From: an uncultured Muribaculaceae bacterium
GTDB taxonomy: Bacteria; Bacteroidota; Bacteroidia; Bacteroidales; Muribaculaceae
Length of the DNA stretch: 64,000 nucleotides
Reading direction: 5' to 3'
Assembly: GCA_944321865.1 (NCBI GenBank)
Contig: CALUMZ010000099.1
Span: forward strand, 1 to 64,000
Part shown: positions 153-42,472 of the stretch, one piece after another
Layout: every line of letters begins with the position of its first letter
Position numbering within the stretch: position 1 is the first letter of the stretch
The notes under the pieces: model-generated
Databases searched by the model: none
What the model was told of the DNA's origin: nothing
What the model saw: only the letters and a program-made list of their open reading frames with translations
Program-made: the position numbers and the translations under genes

Positions 153-161
153 TTTCTGAAG

Positions 162-235
162 TAGCGGGATCGAGAATTGAACTCGAGACCTCCGGGTTAT
201 GAATCCGACGCTCTAACCAACTGAGCTATCCCGCC
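162..235 (-). tRNA. tRNA-Met (anticodon CAU)
   Basis: The minus strand gives a 74-base cloverleaf: acceptor stem GGCGGGA pairing with TCCCGCT, D-arm GCTCAGTTGGTTAGAGC, anticodon loop TTCATAA and T-loop GTTCAATTC. The anticodon is CAU, so this is an elongator methionine tRNA; a lysidine-modified tRNA-Ile(CAU) cannot be excluded by eye. CCA is not encoded. The anticodon stem closes with an A-C mismatch next to the loop. It has its own promoter at 258-289 and a terminator at 118-152. Confidence 0.92.
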
Positions 236-383: not shown

Positions 384-1445
384 TTAATGTGTTTTGATAT
401 ATTTTACAATCCATTCTCCAACTTCGCGTGTGCCGTATGTTGCACCTCCGTTAACTTGTATTTCCGGAGTACGAATGTTGGCGTCAAGAGATGCATTTAC
501 GGCATTCCGGATTATTTCCCCTTCGTCCATTAAGTTGAAATATTCAAATAGCATTGCCACCGATAAGATTTGTGCGATAGGATTGGCTATGTTTTTACCT
601 TTAGCTTGGGGCCATGAGCCATGTATAGGTTCAAATACCGGCGTTCCCGTACCTGTAGATGCCGACGGGAGCAGTCCCATCGAGCCCGAAATGCATGAAC
701 CTTCATCGGTCAGAATGTCGCCAAATGTGTTTTCAGTAACTATTACGTCAAAGAATCGCGGGTCTTGTATCATTTTCATGGCTGCATTGTCGACATACAT
801 GTAGTCGGTGTTTACTTCAGGATACAAAGGGGCCATTTCTTGTGCTATTTTACGCCACAAGCGACTTGATGCAAGAACATTTGCCTTGTCCACGACTGTC
901 AGATGCTTACGTCTTTTCAGGGCATATTCAAATGCCACTTTCAAGATGCGTTCTACTTCGTGGCGAGTGTATAAGTTGGTGTCGAATGCCTTGTTGTCGT
1001 CTTGATACTTCTCGCCGAAATACATCCCTCCGGTCAATTCTCTGATACATATAAAATCGGCTCCGTCAACAATGTCGGATTTTAGCGGAGAATTGTGTAC
1101 AAGGCACTTGAATGTCTGAACCGGACGAATATTGGCAAACAATCCCAGTTTTTTGCGCATTGCAAGCAACCCTTGTTCGGGACGAACTTTTGCAGTAGGG
1201 TCGTTGTCGAATTTTGGATCACCTACAGCCGAAAATAATACTGCGTCGGCCTCGCGGCATATTTCAAAAGTCTCTTGCGGAAACGGGTCTCCGACTTTTT
1301 CAATGGCATCGGCACCGCAAACGGCTTCTTTAAATGTTACCGAGTGGTTGAATTTTTTACATACGGCTTTCATGACTGCCACGCCCTGTACTGATATTTC
1401 GGGGCCTATGCCGTCGCCGGCAAGAACTGCGATATTAAGTTTCAT
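384..1445 (-). CDS. leuB: 3-isopropylmalate dehydrogenase
   Basis: Third step of leucine biosynthesis: NAD-dependent oxidative decarboxylation of 3-isopropylmalate to 2-oxoisocaproate in the cytoplasm. The 353-residue product has the family's normal length. It begins with the nucleotide-fold motif GDGIGPEI (residues 11-18) and carries the isocitrate/isopropylmalate dehydrogenase signature [10 protein letters not shown] in the C-terminal half. It is the last gene of the minus-strand leu operon, 16 bases after the citramalate synthase-like gene. No clear intrinsic terminator follows it. The related citramalate pathway uses the same enzyme, so it may also serve isoleucine synthesis. The call is firm. 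Confidence 0.96.
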
Positions 1446-1461
1446 ATTACCTGTGATATAT

Positions 1462-2979
1462 TTACATGTTTTCTACTATGTTTAACATTTTCAAAGTTGC
1501 TTGTATTGCAGCTTCGATTTGGTCGGCATCAAGTCCACGGGTTTTTATTATGTGCCCATTGTGTTCCCAAGTGATGTTGGTTTGTACGAGCGCATCGGTT
1601 TGCCCTCCGGGAGGAATGCTGACTGTGTAATTTGTCAGGGTGGGGAAACGCCGGTTTAGATTCTTGGCGTATATTTTTTTTACAGCTTTTACGAATGCAT
1701 CATATTGTCCGTCTCCGACTGCGCTTTGTTGAAATTCCACACCATCGACTTCAAGTTTTATTGTTGCAGTAGGGCGCAACCCTTGTGAAAGATTTAATGC
1801 GTAGTTGATTATGCGAACCTTGTTGGCCGGTATGTTGTGTTTTAACACATCGGATACGATATATGGAAGGTCGTCGGGAGTGACGATTTCTTTTTTATCT
1901 CCAAGTTCGATTACGCGCTGAGTAACCTTTTTTATGTCTTCATCGGTTAGTTCTATGCCAAGCGATTCAAGATTTTTGCGAATATTGGCTTTGCCTGACA
2001 TTTTTCCAAGGGCGTATTGGCGTTCCCTGCCGAAGCGTTCGGGTAACAAGTCATTATAGTATAGATTATTTTTGTTGTCACCATCGGCATGAACACCGGC
2101 GCACTGAGTGAAGACAAATTCACCAACTATCGGTTGATTGGGAGGAACTACTATCCCGGAGAATGACTCTACGATGTGGCTGACTTTGTTGATTTTGGTT
2201 TCATTTACATCGGTGCTTTTGTGCAGCATGTCGTGGATGACGGCGACTACACTTGCAAGTGGCGCATTTCCGGCGCGTTCTCCAAGGCCGTTCACGGTGC
2301 AGTGTATGCCTTTTACGCCTACAAGCCCGGCGGCAAAAGAGTTGGCTGTGGCAAGGTCATAATCATTGTGTGCGTGGAAATCGAAATGTGTGCCGGGATA
2401 CCTGTTAACCATGCGTTTGCAATATTCATACACTTCGTTTGGATTCATGATTCCAAGTGTGTCGGGCAGCATGAAACGTTTTATGGGCAATGTTATAAGT
2501 TTGTCCATTAAATCATATACATATTGTGGAGATTTGGTTATTCCGTTGGACCAATCTTCAAGATATATATTTACATCCAAGCCATCGTTTACCGCCTGCA
2601 ATACGTTTGAGCGTATGTCGGTATAATGCTCGTCGATGTTTTTGCCCAATTGTGACACACAATGCTTGAGTGAGCCTTTTGCAAGAAAGTTTATAACTTT
2701 CCCTCCAACGCTTTTTACCCAATTTATTGATAACCCATTGTCGATAAATCCAAGTATTTCAATTTTATTGATATTGCCTGAAGAGCGAGCCCAATTACAT
2801 ACCGAGCGCACCGATTCAAATTCGCCTGAAGAGACTCGTGCCGATGCAATCTCAATGCGAGGTACATTGAGTTCGCATAAGACAAGCCGAGTGATGTTTA
2901 ATTTCTCGGAAGTGGAGAATGACACTCCCGAGGTTTGCTCACCTTCCCGCAAAGTTGTATCTAATAATTCTATTTGCAT
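1462..2979 (-). CDS. cimA: Citramalate synthase-like / second 2-isopropylmalate synthase family enzyme
   Basis: A 505-residue acyl-CoA-condensing enzyme of the LeuA/CimA/homocitrate synthase family. The HMGL-type TIM barrel starts with DTTLREGEQ (residues 7-15), includes the metal-binding HAHND motif, and is followed by a LeuA-type allosteric dimerisation domain from about residue 370. It is clearly diverged from the classical LeuA encoded at 5051-6550 in the same operon, so a different oxo-acid substrate is likely. Pyruvate (citramalate synthase, a threonine-independent route to isoleucine) is the best guess, because LeuC, LeuD and LeuB can process citramalate. The family is seen; the substrate is inferred. 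A second 2-isopropylmalate synthase is the alternative. Confidence 0.7.
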
Positions 2980-2997
2980 AATATGTAACGATATAGA

Positions 2998-3597
2998 TTA
3001 ATATGGCATGCGATTGGTAGTTTCCCACGACTCAATGTCATTGAGGTTGTTGAGAAGAAAATCTATATCGTCAAATCCATTTAGCAGACAATCTTTTTTA
3101 TATGGGCTGATGTCGAAGTGCTCGGTTTCTTTTGTTGCATTGTTGGTGACTGTTTGTTCCACTAAATTCACCGTTACAGTCGTGTTATGGTCATTTTCGA
3201 TAGAAGAAAAGAGGCTCGTGAGAAATTCTTCGGAAACAACAACCGGGAGCAAACAATTATTGAGCGCATTGTTCTTGAATATATCGGCGAAGAAACTCGA
3301 TATTACCACTTTGAATCCATATCCGGCAACAGCCCATGCTGCATGCTCACGGCTTGATCCCGAACCGAAGTTCTTGCCGGCGACGAGTATCTTACCGCTG
3401 TATGTCGGGTCGTTCAATACGAAAGAATCGATTTTATTTCCGTCTTTGTCGAATCGCCAGTCGCGAAATAAATTGTCGCCAAATCCCTTGCGAGATGTGG
3501 CCTTAAGGAATCGAGCCGGAATGATTTGGTCGGTATCGATATTTTCACGAGGAATGGGAATACATGTAGATGTAAGTGTCTGGAATTTATCTTTCAT
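2998..3597 (-). CDS. leuD: 3-isopropylmalate dehydratase small subunit
   Basis: Small subunit of isopropylmalate isomerase, which pairs with LeuC to convert 2-isopropylmalate to 3-isopropylmalate. At 199 residues it matches the usual length of about 200. The aconitase swivel-domain motif is present around residues 75-90 ([13 protein letters not shown]). It lies 33 bases downstream of leuC and 18 bases upstream of the citramalate synthase-like gene in the leu operon. In organisms that make citramalate, the same isomerase acts on that substrate too. Confidence 0.96.
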
Positions 3598-3630: not shown

Positions 3631-5025
3631 TTAGATGAGCGATGCAGGATTGGTTATTTTGCCTGTTACAGCAGCTGCGGCAGCAACGAGTGGACCGGCA
3701 AGTATGGTTCTTGCGCCGGGTCCTTGACGGCCTTCAAAATTCCTGTTTGATGTGGAAACGGCATATTTCCCGGTGGGAATCTTGTCGTCGTTCATGGCAA
3801 GACATGCCGAGCAGCCCGGTTGCCGAATCTCAAATCCGGCTTCTTCGAGAATTTTGTCGATGCCTTCGCTCTTTATCTGATTAACCACTTTCCAAGACCC
3901 CGGAACCAACCATGCGGTGACACCGGGTGATTTCTTTTTCCCTTTGACTAATGATGCAAAGGCGCGGAAATCTTCAATGCGTCCATTGGTGCAACTGCCG
4001 AGGAATACATAATCGATGGGGTGGCCTTCGATTTTTTGCCCCGGAGTAAATCCCATGTATTCGAGAGACTTCATAAAAGAGTTTCTTCCCGACGCATCTA
4101 TTTGTTCCAAGGTGGGTATGACTTCGTCTACTTCAATTCCCATACCGGGATTGGTGCCGTAAGTGATGCGCGGATTAATGTCGGCTGCATCGAATGAAAC
4201 CTCTTTGTCAAAAATGGCATCATCGCCGCTTTTTAATGTCTGCCAATAGGCTACGGCTTCGTCCCATTTGTCACCTTGCGGGGCATATTCGCGGCCTTTG
4301 AGGTAATTGAACGTTACTTCGTCGGGGGCAATCATACCGCCGCGTGCCCCCATTTCGATGCTTAGGTTGCACACAGTCATGCGTTCTTCCATCGACAGAT
4401 TGCGTATGGCTTCGCCGGCATATTCCACAAAGTAGCCGGTTGCACCGCCTGTTGTCATTTTGTTGATAATGTATAGTGCAATATCCTTGGCCGTGACAAA
4501 AGGTTTTAAGGAACCATTAATTGTTATTCGCATGGATTTTGGCTTGGGTTGCAATATACATTGTGATGCAAGAACCATTTCAACTTCACTTGTTCCTATG
4601 CCAAATGCTACAGCTCCAAATGCACCGTGGGTAGATGTGTGGCTATCGCCGCAAACGATGGTGTATCCGGGCAGAGTGAGCCCGTTTTCGGGTCCGATGA
4701 CATGGATAATACCGTTTTTGGGGTCACCAAGGTTGAAAATAGTGAGGTTAAAATCACCTGCATTCTTTGTCAGTGCATCTACTTGGTTTCTTGACACCGG
4801 GTCGGAGATTGGTTTGTCTTGATGCAGGGTGGGAATATTATGATCGGGAGAGCAAAATGTCTTTTCGGGGCGGAAAACCTTTATGCCGCGTTCACGCATG
4901 TCGTTGAAGGCCTGCGGACTTGTAACTTCGTGGCAATAGTGCCTGTCGATGTATAACAAAGATGTTCCGCCGGGTACGGTTTTTACGGTATGTGAATCCC
5001 ATATTTTGTCAAACAATGTGTTCAT
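3631..5025 (-). CDS. leuC: 3-isopropylmalate dehydratase large subunit
   Basis: Large, [4Fe-4S]-containing subunit of isopropylmalate isomerase (aconitase superfamily). The 464-residue length fits the bacterial LeuC family. Cluster ligands are visible as the Cys of GSCTNGR (near residue 345) and the two Cys of GCSACLAM (near 405-410). [12 protein letters not shown] around residue 130 is another family signature. It follows leuA by 25 bases and precedes leuD. Confidence 0.96.
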
Positions 5026-5050: not shown

Positions 5051-6550
5051 TTAGTGTACGAATTTGTTTATTGCATCAATAAAAGCTTCGGCTGATGCGG
5101 CAACTATGTCGGTGTTGGCCGAGAACCCATAATAATGGTTGCCTTCATATTCAACTGTGATGTGAACTTTTCCCACATCGTTGCTTCCTCGCGTTATTGC
5201 TTGGATGAGGAATTCTTCGACGACCATTCGCCGGTGTATGATTTGTTTTATTGCATTTATTGCGGCATCGACAGGCCCGTTACCCGAAGAACATGTTTCA
5301 AATCGCTCGGAGGCAATGTCGAGGCATACACTTGCAACAGATTGCAGGCCTATACCTGACGTTACTTGAAGGAATACGAGCTTGATGCGAGCGTTTTTGT
5401 TAATATGCTTGCCTACAAGCATCATTATATCATCGTCGTTGATGTCTTTTTTGCGGTCGGCTAATTTTAAGAAAGAGTCGTAGGCCTTGTCGAGATCTTC
5501 TTTTGAAAGTTCCACTCCAAGCAGGTGCAGACGGTGCTTCAGTGCGGCGCGGCCACTGCGGGCAGTCAAGACTATGGAATTCTCGTCGATGCCCACATCT
5601 TTTGGGTCGATAATTTCGTAGCTTTCCCTGTTTTTGAGCACTCCGTCTTGATGGATGCCTGATGAGTGGGCAAATGCGTTGCGCCCCACGATTGCCTTGT
5701 TGGGTTGCACGGGCATGTTCATCAGGCTTGAAACCATGCGGCTCGTTTTGTAAATGCGTGAAGTGTTTATGTTAGTGTCGATGCCTATTTCCTTGTGGCT
5801 CTTGAATATCATTGCAATTTCTTCAAGAGAAGTGTTGCCTGCGCGTTCTCCGATGCCGTTGATTGTCACTTCGGCTTGGCGTGCGCCATTTAAAATGCCA
5901 CATACAGTATTTGCCGTTGCCATCCCGAGGTCGTTGTGGCAATGGGTTGCTATTATGGCTTTGTCGATGTTGCTGACGTTGTCGACAAGATACTTGATTT
6001 TTGCCCCGAATTCTTGCGGCAGACAGTAACCTGTGGTGTCGGGAATATTTACTACTGTGGCACCGGCCTTGATTACGGCTTCAATAACGCGGGCAAGGTA
6101 TTCATTGTCGGTACGTCCGGCATCTTCGGCATAGAATTGGACATCCTCGACGAACTTCTTTGCATATTTTACGGCTGCTACTGCGCGTTCGATTATTTCT
6201 TCGCGCGTGGAATTGAATTTGTATTTTATATGGTAGTCAGAAGTTCCGATGCCTGTGTGTATGCGCCCATGTTTGGCATATTTCAGAGCTTCGGCAGCAG
6301 CATCAATATCTTTTTCCACGGCACGTGTCAGTGCGCAGATGGTGGGCCATGTAACTGCTTTGGAAATCTCTACTACAGAATTAAAGTCGCCAGGACTTGA
6401 GACCGGAAATCCGGCTTCGATGACATCAACGCCAAGTGCTTCGAGGGCTTTGGCAACTTCAACCTTTTCTACGGTATTAAGTTGGCAACCCGGGACTTGC
6501 TCCCCATCGCGTAATGTGGTGTCAAAAATGTAAAGTCTGTTGTTTTCCAT
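5051..6550 (-). CDS. leuA: 2-isopropylmalate synthase
   Basis: First committed step of leucine synthesis: condensation of acetyl-CoA with 2-oxoisovalerate. The 499-residue protein has the HMGL barrel with DTTLRDGEQ (residues 10-18), a metal-binding HCHND motif near 203, and the C-terminal LeuA allosteric domain (about 370-499) through which leucine inhibits the family. It is the first structural gene of the operon. The ATG at 6550 lies only about 10 bases after the attenuator T-tract, so its transcription depends on read-through controlled by the leader peptide at 6655-6723. Confidence 0.96.
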
Positions 6551-6560
6551 ATCTTATAAA

Positions 6561-6597
6561 ATAAAAAAGCCTTTCTTTTGTTGGAAGAAAGGTGCTT
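6561..6597 (-). terminator. Attenuator (intrinsic terminator) of the leu operon
   Basis: On the minus strand the arms CCTTTCTT and AAGAAAGG (plus-strand positions 6585-6592 and 6570-6577) form an 8-bp stem with a 7-base loop. It is extended by AGC/GCT across a bulge and followed directly by CTTTTTTATTTT. It sits between the leader peptide and leuA, so it acts inside the operon and not at its end. Part of its 5' arm with the loop edge (TCTTCCA, 6588-6582) can pair instead with TGGAAGA (6654-6648) just after the leader stop codon, giving an antiterminator. Confidence 0.8.
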
Positions 6598-6654
6598 GGG
6601 GTTAAAATGCGAATATTTTCGTGCATCTTATACATGTACACTGATTATCTTCCA

Positions 6655-6723
6655 CTACCGTGAATGCTGATTTAGTAGTAGAATAGATAGTGAAATGTTT
6701 TCAATGCTGAGGCAATTGTTCAT
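6655..6723 (-). CDS. leuL: Leucine-rich leader peptide of the leu operon (attenuation)
   Basis: A 22-codon ORF on the minus strand runs from ATG at 6723 to TAG at 6655 and encodes MNNCLSIENISLSILLLNQHSR. Five of 22 residues are Leu and three are Ile. Leu codons 15-17 are three consecutive CUA codons, preceded by Ile codon 14. It starts about 20 bases downstream of the predicted transcription start and is followed by an intrinsic terminator before leuA. This is the architecture of a ribosome-mediated attenuator: scarce charged tRNA-Leu would stall the ribosome at the CUA run and free the TGGAAGA element for antitermination. The ORF and structures are visible; the regulation is inferred. Confidence 0.8.
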   Translation of the reverse strand: MNNCLSIENISLSILLLNQHSR

Positions 6724-6749: not shown

Positions 6750-6780
6750 CAAAGTTAAACTAAAAAAGATATAATACAAA
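6750..6780 (-). promoter_or_regulatory. Promoter of the leu operon leader
   Basis: Perfect match to the Bacteroidota promoter consensus on the minus strand: TTTG (6780-6777), a 19-base spacer and TAACTTTG (6757-6750). Transcription should begin near 6743, about 20 bases before the leader-peptide ATG. Confidence 0.8.
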
Positions 6781-42317: not shown

Positions 42318-42397
42318 TATCAATGAATTTGTTTGCATTGACGGGGACGCAGGGGAGTATAGGTAATGAGGAATATTTGTACGTGTGTTATAAACAA

Positions 42398-42465
42398 TTC
42401 CTACGCCGGCATTATCCGGTTCAGGTTCACAGGGTATAATCTCAGCCTATCCGGCACCCCTTTGT
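42398..42465 (-). ncRNA. TPP riboswitch (THI element)
   Basis: The minus strand carries the conserved THI-box blocks: AAAGGGGTGCCGGATAGG, then CTGAGA, ATACCC, GAACCTGA and CCGGATAATGCCGGCGTAGG in order. These form the pyrimidine-sensing CUGAGA bulge and the pyrophosphate-binding helix of the TPP aptamer. It precedes thiD in the same orientation. No clear Rho-independent terminator lies between aptamer and gene, so control may act on translation initiation. Confidence 0.96.
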
Positions 42466-42472
42466 CTGTTTG

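Follow-up and report, generated by a model that had tools for sequence, protein, structure and literature searches.

The leucine operon and its leader ORF

The minus strand of the window (the whole stretch of DNA that was analysed, 64 kb) carries, in this order, a putative promoter, a short leader ORF, a terminator, leuA, leuC, leuD, a gene for a cimA-like synthase and leuB (Table 1). A first-pass annotation had placed a leucine leader peptide of 22 codons with five Leu and three Ile residues and a CUA-CUA-CUA run behind a promoter and upstream of leuA; its coordinates and counts proved exact, and the gene that follows the ORF is leuA. A tRNA gene lies directly 3' of leuB on the same strand (window 161-235, minus strand). 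We considered whether it might encode a CUA-reading tRNA-Leu and rejected this, as it is a tRNA-Met (CAT). Elsewhere in the window, a TPP riboswitch was found at 42381-42471 on the minus strand (72.5 bits).

Table 1. Features of the leu leader and operon, in order of transcription; positions are those of the window.
Feature	Position	Strand	Evidence or remark
Putative Bacteroidota-type promoter	6750..6780	-	Read from sequence: -33 TTTG (6780-6777), 19-nt spacer, -7 TAACTTTG (6757-6750)
Leader ORF MNNCLSIENISLSILLLNQHSR	6655..6723	-	22 codons; relatives hold equivalents
Strand 1, Leu-codon region AUCUAUUCUACUACU	6674..6688	-	Pairs with strand 2 in naked RNA (minimum-energy fold)
Strand 2, GGUAGUGGAAGAU, with the UAG stop inside	6647..6659	-	Alternative partners are strand 1 or strand 3
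Strand 3, UCUUCCA, terminator 5' arm and loop portion	6582..6588	-	Can pair with UGGAAGA in strand 2 as antiterminator; simulated-ribosome fold, covariation
Intrinsic terminator CCUUUCUU-CCAACAA-AAGAAAGG, then CUUUUUU	6563..6592	-	Hairpin 6592-6570; 20 nt 5' of leuA; covaries in relatives
leuA, 2-isopropylmalate synthase, predicted first regulated gene	5051..6550	-	NCBIfam NF002086, 733 bits
leuC, 3-isopropylmalate dehydratase large subunit	3631..5025	-	
leuD, 3-isopropylmalate dehydratase small subunit	2998..3597	-	
cimA-like second isopropylmalate/citramalate synthase (isoleucine precursor route)	1462..2979	-	Best NCBIfam match is the CimA model, 625 bits, under its 950 cut-off
leuB, 3-isopropylmalate dehydrogenase	384..1445	-	TIGR00169, 431 bits

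The leader ORF reads ATG AAC AAT TGC CTC AGC ATT GAA AAC ATT TCA CTA TCT ATT CTA CTA CTA AAT CAG CAT TCA CGG TAG, so that its five Leu codons are one CUC and four CUA, and the presumptive control codons CUA-CUA-CUA are codons 15-17 (6681-6673, minus strand). As read from the sequence, the promoter that had been noted ahead of the ORF, TTTG-N19-TAACTTTG, fits the Bacteroidota TTTG/TAnnTTTG type, and a T[A/G]nnTTTG box is found 18-50 nt 5' of the ATG of the short ORF in 50 of 57 related leaders. A sigma-70 promoter scan was set aside as the wrong model for Bacteroidota, whose promoter type lies outside its coverage.

On its own, the peptide makes a modest case for an attenuator. At least five Leu residues occur in about 4% of 22-aa stretches taken from the proteins of the window, and LLL as well in 0.6%, while short ORFs with four Leu in six codons are present in four other upstream regions (48 examined). 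Since ORFs of this kind are common enough, a short Leu-rich ORF by itself proves little. The composition of this one is more particular: CUACUACUA occurs a single time in the 64 kb, both strands counted, and CUA, at 6.8%, is used less than any other Leu codon in the window, giving a chance of about 1e-4 for four CUA among five Leu codons (binomial, calculated by hand). What lifts the leader beyond chance is the terminator and antiterminator together with the comparative evidence.

Mutually exclusive pairings in the leader RNA

Folding of the naked leader yields -37 kcal/mol, compared with -22.8 for shuffled sequences (z -4.2). In this fold the Leu-codon region is paired with GGUAGUGGAAGAU and the terminator is formed; by folding, pairing of the Leu codons with strand 2 recurs in 57 of 57 leaders. 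We then placed a simulated ribosome on the RNA, with an assumed footprint of 13 nt counted from the A-site codon's first base. With the A site at Leu15, Leu16 or Leu17, pairing of strand 2 with UCUUCCA is predicted to precede synthesis of the terminator 3' arm (-17.6 kcal/mol), whereas with the A site at the stop codon this pairing is lost and the terminator forms. The window's antiterminator is a short helix (7 bp, -9.7 kcal/mol), and with the ribosome at Leu16 the minimum-energy fold of the complete RNA slightly favours the terminator. The switch would therefore depend on co-transcriptional order. The order of synthesis matters in known attenuators too.

Both helices are backed by covariation in an alignment of relatives that was made with MAFFT without structure information. 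In the terminator, both-sided changes were seen in 11 of 13 pairs, and 89% of cells are paired compared with 34-64% when the strands are slid; in the antiterminator, both-sided changes affect six of nine pairs, and 84% of cells are paired compared with 36-60% when slid by 1-3 columns. Moreover, pairing between strand 2 and strand 3 of the same locus totals -933.5 kcal/mol against -758 +/- 18 kcal/mol for swapped strands, a contrast that was reached in none of 20,000 permutations and that relatedness inflates. When the test was confined to the window's own family, same-locus and swapped strand pairing did not differ significantly (965 of 5,000 permutations), because strand 3 is conserved there.

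The leader thus combines the parts of an attenuator: a short ORF with a codon cluster for the pathway end product, an intrinsic terminator between this ORF and the first structural gene, and an antiterminator that excludes the terminator and that covariation supports order-wide, though not significantly in the window's own family. In the folding model, strand 1, which holds the control codons, sequesters the antiterminator strand, and the latter would be masked by a ribosome that has reached the stop codon. The first-pass annotation had proposed ribosome-mediated attenuation, a reading to which the predicted terminator and antiterminator, simulated folding, covariation and conservation lend support; the decisive parts, terminator and antiterminator, were absent from it. 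We consider it very probable that leuA-leuC-leuD-cimA-like-leuB is controlled by ribosome-mediated transcription attenuation, and we infer that the leader ORF is translated and that read-through responds to leucine. When charged tRNA-Leu is plentiful, the ribosome would reach the UAG and cover strand 2, leaving strand 3 free, so that the terminator would form and transcription would end upstream of leuA. Under scarcity of charged tRNA-Leu, and probably also of tRNA-Ile, the ribosome would stall at the CUA run and cover strand 1; strand 2, now unpaired, would bind nascent strand 3, the terminator would be blocked and the operon transcribed. In the absence of translation, strand 1 would pair with strand 2 and the operon would be off.

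We also weighed whether the peptide might act by translational coupling, by reinitiation or in trans, and not by transcription attenuation. A general role of leader ORFs in reinitiation has been suggested, with a Bacteroidetes peak at 11-14 bp (PMC4833913), but here about 105 nt separate the stop of the ORF from the leuA start, a stretch that contains the terminator hairpin and the U-run, and coupling has no need of conserved terminator and antiterminator pairs. We regard such a role as extremely improbable. Our confidence is equally slight in a ligand- or tRNA-binding leader, that is, a riboswitch or T-box that contains the ORF by accident. The structure of the 5' leader, with its terminator and antiterminator, would suit such an element, but an Rfam scan of the window leader gave zero matches at gathering score (the threshold was not reached for RF01692, Leu_leader or the T-box families) and chance-level ones at a relaxed threshold, and what the alignment shows is control codons and three short pairing strands; an aptamer-like core is not conserved.

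Conservation across Bacteroidales and the amino acid sensed

To the 80 Bacteroidales leuA loci sampled, 30 from the genomes of relatives were added, giving 110. Most of them share the same anatomy 5' of leuA, namely an ATG ORF with runs like IIILL, a GGAAGUGAG-like strand and a terminator starting with CCUUUCUCACUUCC. A Leu/Ile ORF, terminator and antiterminator are present at the window's own locus and in five of the five same-genus leuA loci found, so the ORF and its Leu codons, whose conservation in relatives had been put forward as a check on the attenuation reading, hold up in the genus and in most Bacteroidales leuA loci. A covariance model built from 52 leaders (R1) detects the element on the leuA strand in 67 of the 110 loci, 15 of the 67 lying outside its building set, and does not detect it in 43. 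A second model, R2, was built on 42 leaders, none of them from the window's family; searched against the 64 kb, it returned the window leader as its single match (E 0.002). Named carriers include Bacteroides gallinarum, Phocaeicola plebeius and Dysgonomonas.

These counts bear on the simplest alternative, in which a chance short ORF precedes an ordinary terminator and leuA has its own promoter between terminator and gene. Leu-rich short ORFs are indeed not rare by themselves, and some relatives transcribe leuA from an immediately adjacent promoter, with the leader absent. However, the gap between terminator and leuA is 20 nt only and holds no promoter motif, and ORF, strand 2 and terminator co-occur 5' of leuA in the 67 loci, with covarying pairs. 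Coincidence of this kind is very unlikely.

On the LeuA tree, presence or absence of the element switches at least 11 times if well-supported branches are counted, and parsimony gives 19 switches; the element is therefore often lost or regained. In the window's family, L086 / L116 (G035:C1) lacks the leader peptide and carries a terminator directly 3' of the leuA promoter, and L094 has a similar terminator remnant; these are possible stages of element loss. Two further loci (L061 and L064) have short ORFs rich in Leu and Arg 5' of leuA, without the usual terminator, and possibly represent a different leader type.

The leader peptides contain 19% Leu, 18% Ile and 3.5% Val, compared with 6.6, 8.8 and 8.9% in leuA. 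Richness in Leu, Ile and Val was part of how the 57 leaders were selected, so the composition of the peptides cannot count as independent evidence; more telling is how little Val they hold. CUA makes up 35% of the leader Leu codons and about 2% of those in the same leuA genes. The possibility that this excess is a by-product of pairing with strand 2 was not supported, as the CUA share is 35% among Leu codons paired with strand 2 and 38% among unpaired ones. It is likely that the rare CUA is chosen for sensitivity. We further infer a contribution of Ile: the leader probably senses Ile as well as Leu, which refines the earlier picture of leucine alone, and sensing of Ile fits the operon's cimA-like gene, the product of which, judging by its family match, should feed isoleucine synthesis.

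Known leaders and other amino-acid operons

For leu operons, leader-peptide attenuation is a classic mechanism. The leu attenuator of Enterobacteria (Rfam Leu_leader; E. coli and Salmonella) resembles the window leader in its run of Leu codons in a short ORF, its use of rare Leu codons, its control of leuA and its alternating 1:2, 2:3 and 3:4 helices. The window leader differs in having a putative Bacteroidota promoter, an A-rich start region, Ile beside the Leu codons, an operon that includes a cimA-like gene, and the UAG within strand 2, and in showing no sequence match to any of the Rfam leaders.

Within the phylum, the Bacteroidete tryptophan peptide leader RNA (Bacteroid-trp, RF01692 in Rfam; PMC2864571) shares the principle but has Trp codons and precedes trp genes, and the window leader does not match it; a trp locus that was found with the leu model (L171) is itself a member of RF01692. 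Strong clues for leader-peptide attenuation in amino-acid operons of Flavobacterium psychrophilum have been inferred from transcript maps (PMC9723704); these structured 5' regions belong to a different class of Bacteroidota, and the available part of that paper does not describe the leu element. Short ORFs reminiscent of leader peptides were noted in the Bacteroides thetaiotaomicron map (PMC7366714), and a relevant survey is cited elsewhere (Lopatovskaya 2010, doi 10.1134/S0026893310010164). Outside the phylum, the leader of Corynebacterium ilvBNC (ilvB-II motif, PMC10272879) likewise has an upstream ORF rich in branched-chain amino acids and a terminator/antiterminator, but it is actinobacterial, precedes ilvB and is unrelated in sequence. 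The first-pass remark that such attenuation is much less characterised in Bacteroidota thus made the field more obscure than it is, since RF01692 is known and leader-peptide attenuation has been inferred for F. psychrophilum (PMC9723704). We found no description of the leu element in the open-access literature; it is ordinary in principle and new as a family.

Operons other than leu were inspected individually in the window's own genome. The ilvD leader MNANTSIKGMLSASFHVVISISVVVAITIA is followed by a GGAGGA/UCCUCC pairing and a terminator, and the hisG leader MKLYSLHTHLRHRHCCELRAAVIMSYMANGRPG by a terminator. The former region (L111, ~1128-1350, 5' of ilvD) makes up a second predicted attenuator, with the Val/Ile-rich peptide VVISISVVVAITIA and the GGAGGA/UCCUCC antiterminator; the latter (L112, reverse strand, upstream of hisG) holds the His-rich HTHLRHRH and then a strong terminator. 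As a contrast case, thrA of the same genome has a short 5' region in which no attenuator was found, and trpE gave no match in this genome.

We also ran R1 over 395 Bacteroidota genomes, naming downstream genes from our own reading of protein starts. Matches include leaders 5' of ilvD (MNRNTSINLSLLDIISVVVVPSRA, Val/Ile), thrA (MTINNTIITTIITTGIKDGGR, Thr/Ile), trpE (MKHFTESYRYYFNSPIINWWWWNSV, Trp), ilvE (MKTNSNIIIISIIIRSFE, Ile) and others. By construction, R1 is biased to Ile-type sequence, and not to Trp or Val codons. Its weak matches include plain terminators (for example L131, L132 and L134), and phylum-wide totals of R1 matches are therefore not counts of attenuators. On balance, we lean towards the view that Bacteroidota amino-acid operons (leu, ilv, his, thr, trp, ilvE and others) generally use leader-peptide attenuation with one shared architecture and control codons fitted to the pathway, in leu with the rarest synonymous codon for sensitivity. 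If true, transcription and translation in Bacteroidota would be coupled tightly enough for the position of the ribosome to steer RNA polymerase. Bacteroidales are prominent gut bacteria, and their amino-acid regulation has been mapped poorly; the leu leader offers a concrete predicted control element for their leucine synthesis, and its recurrence in named species makes both the switch and the tightness of coupling directly testable.

Attenuators of the Ile type also occur in tandem. One such pair is known from model matches alone (G197:C23:497065-497316). A second (L149, G394:C3:21389-21634, plus strand) is made up of two complete attenuators whose peptides differ, with a gene resembling an ACT-domain small subunit downstream. 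The third (L172, G429:C29:22087-22319, minus strand) likewise consists of two complete Ile-type attenuators, 5' of an ilvE-like gene, with the nearly identical peptides MKTNSNIIIISIIIRSFE and MKTNMNIIIISIIIRSFE.
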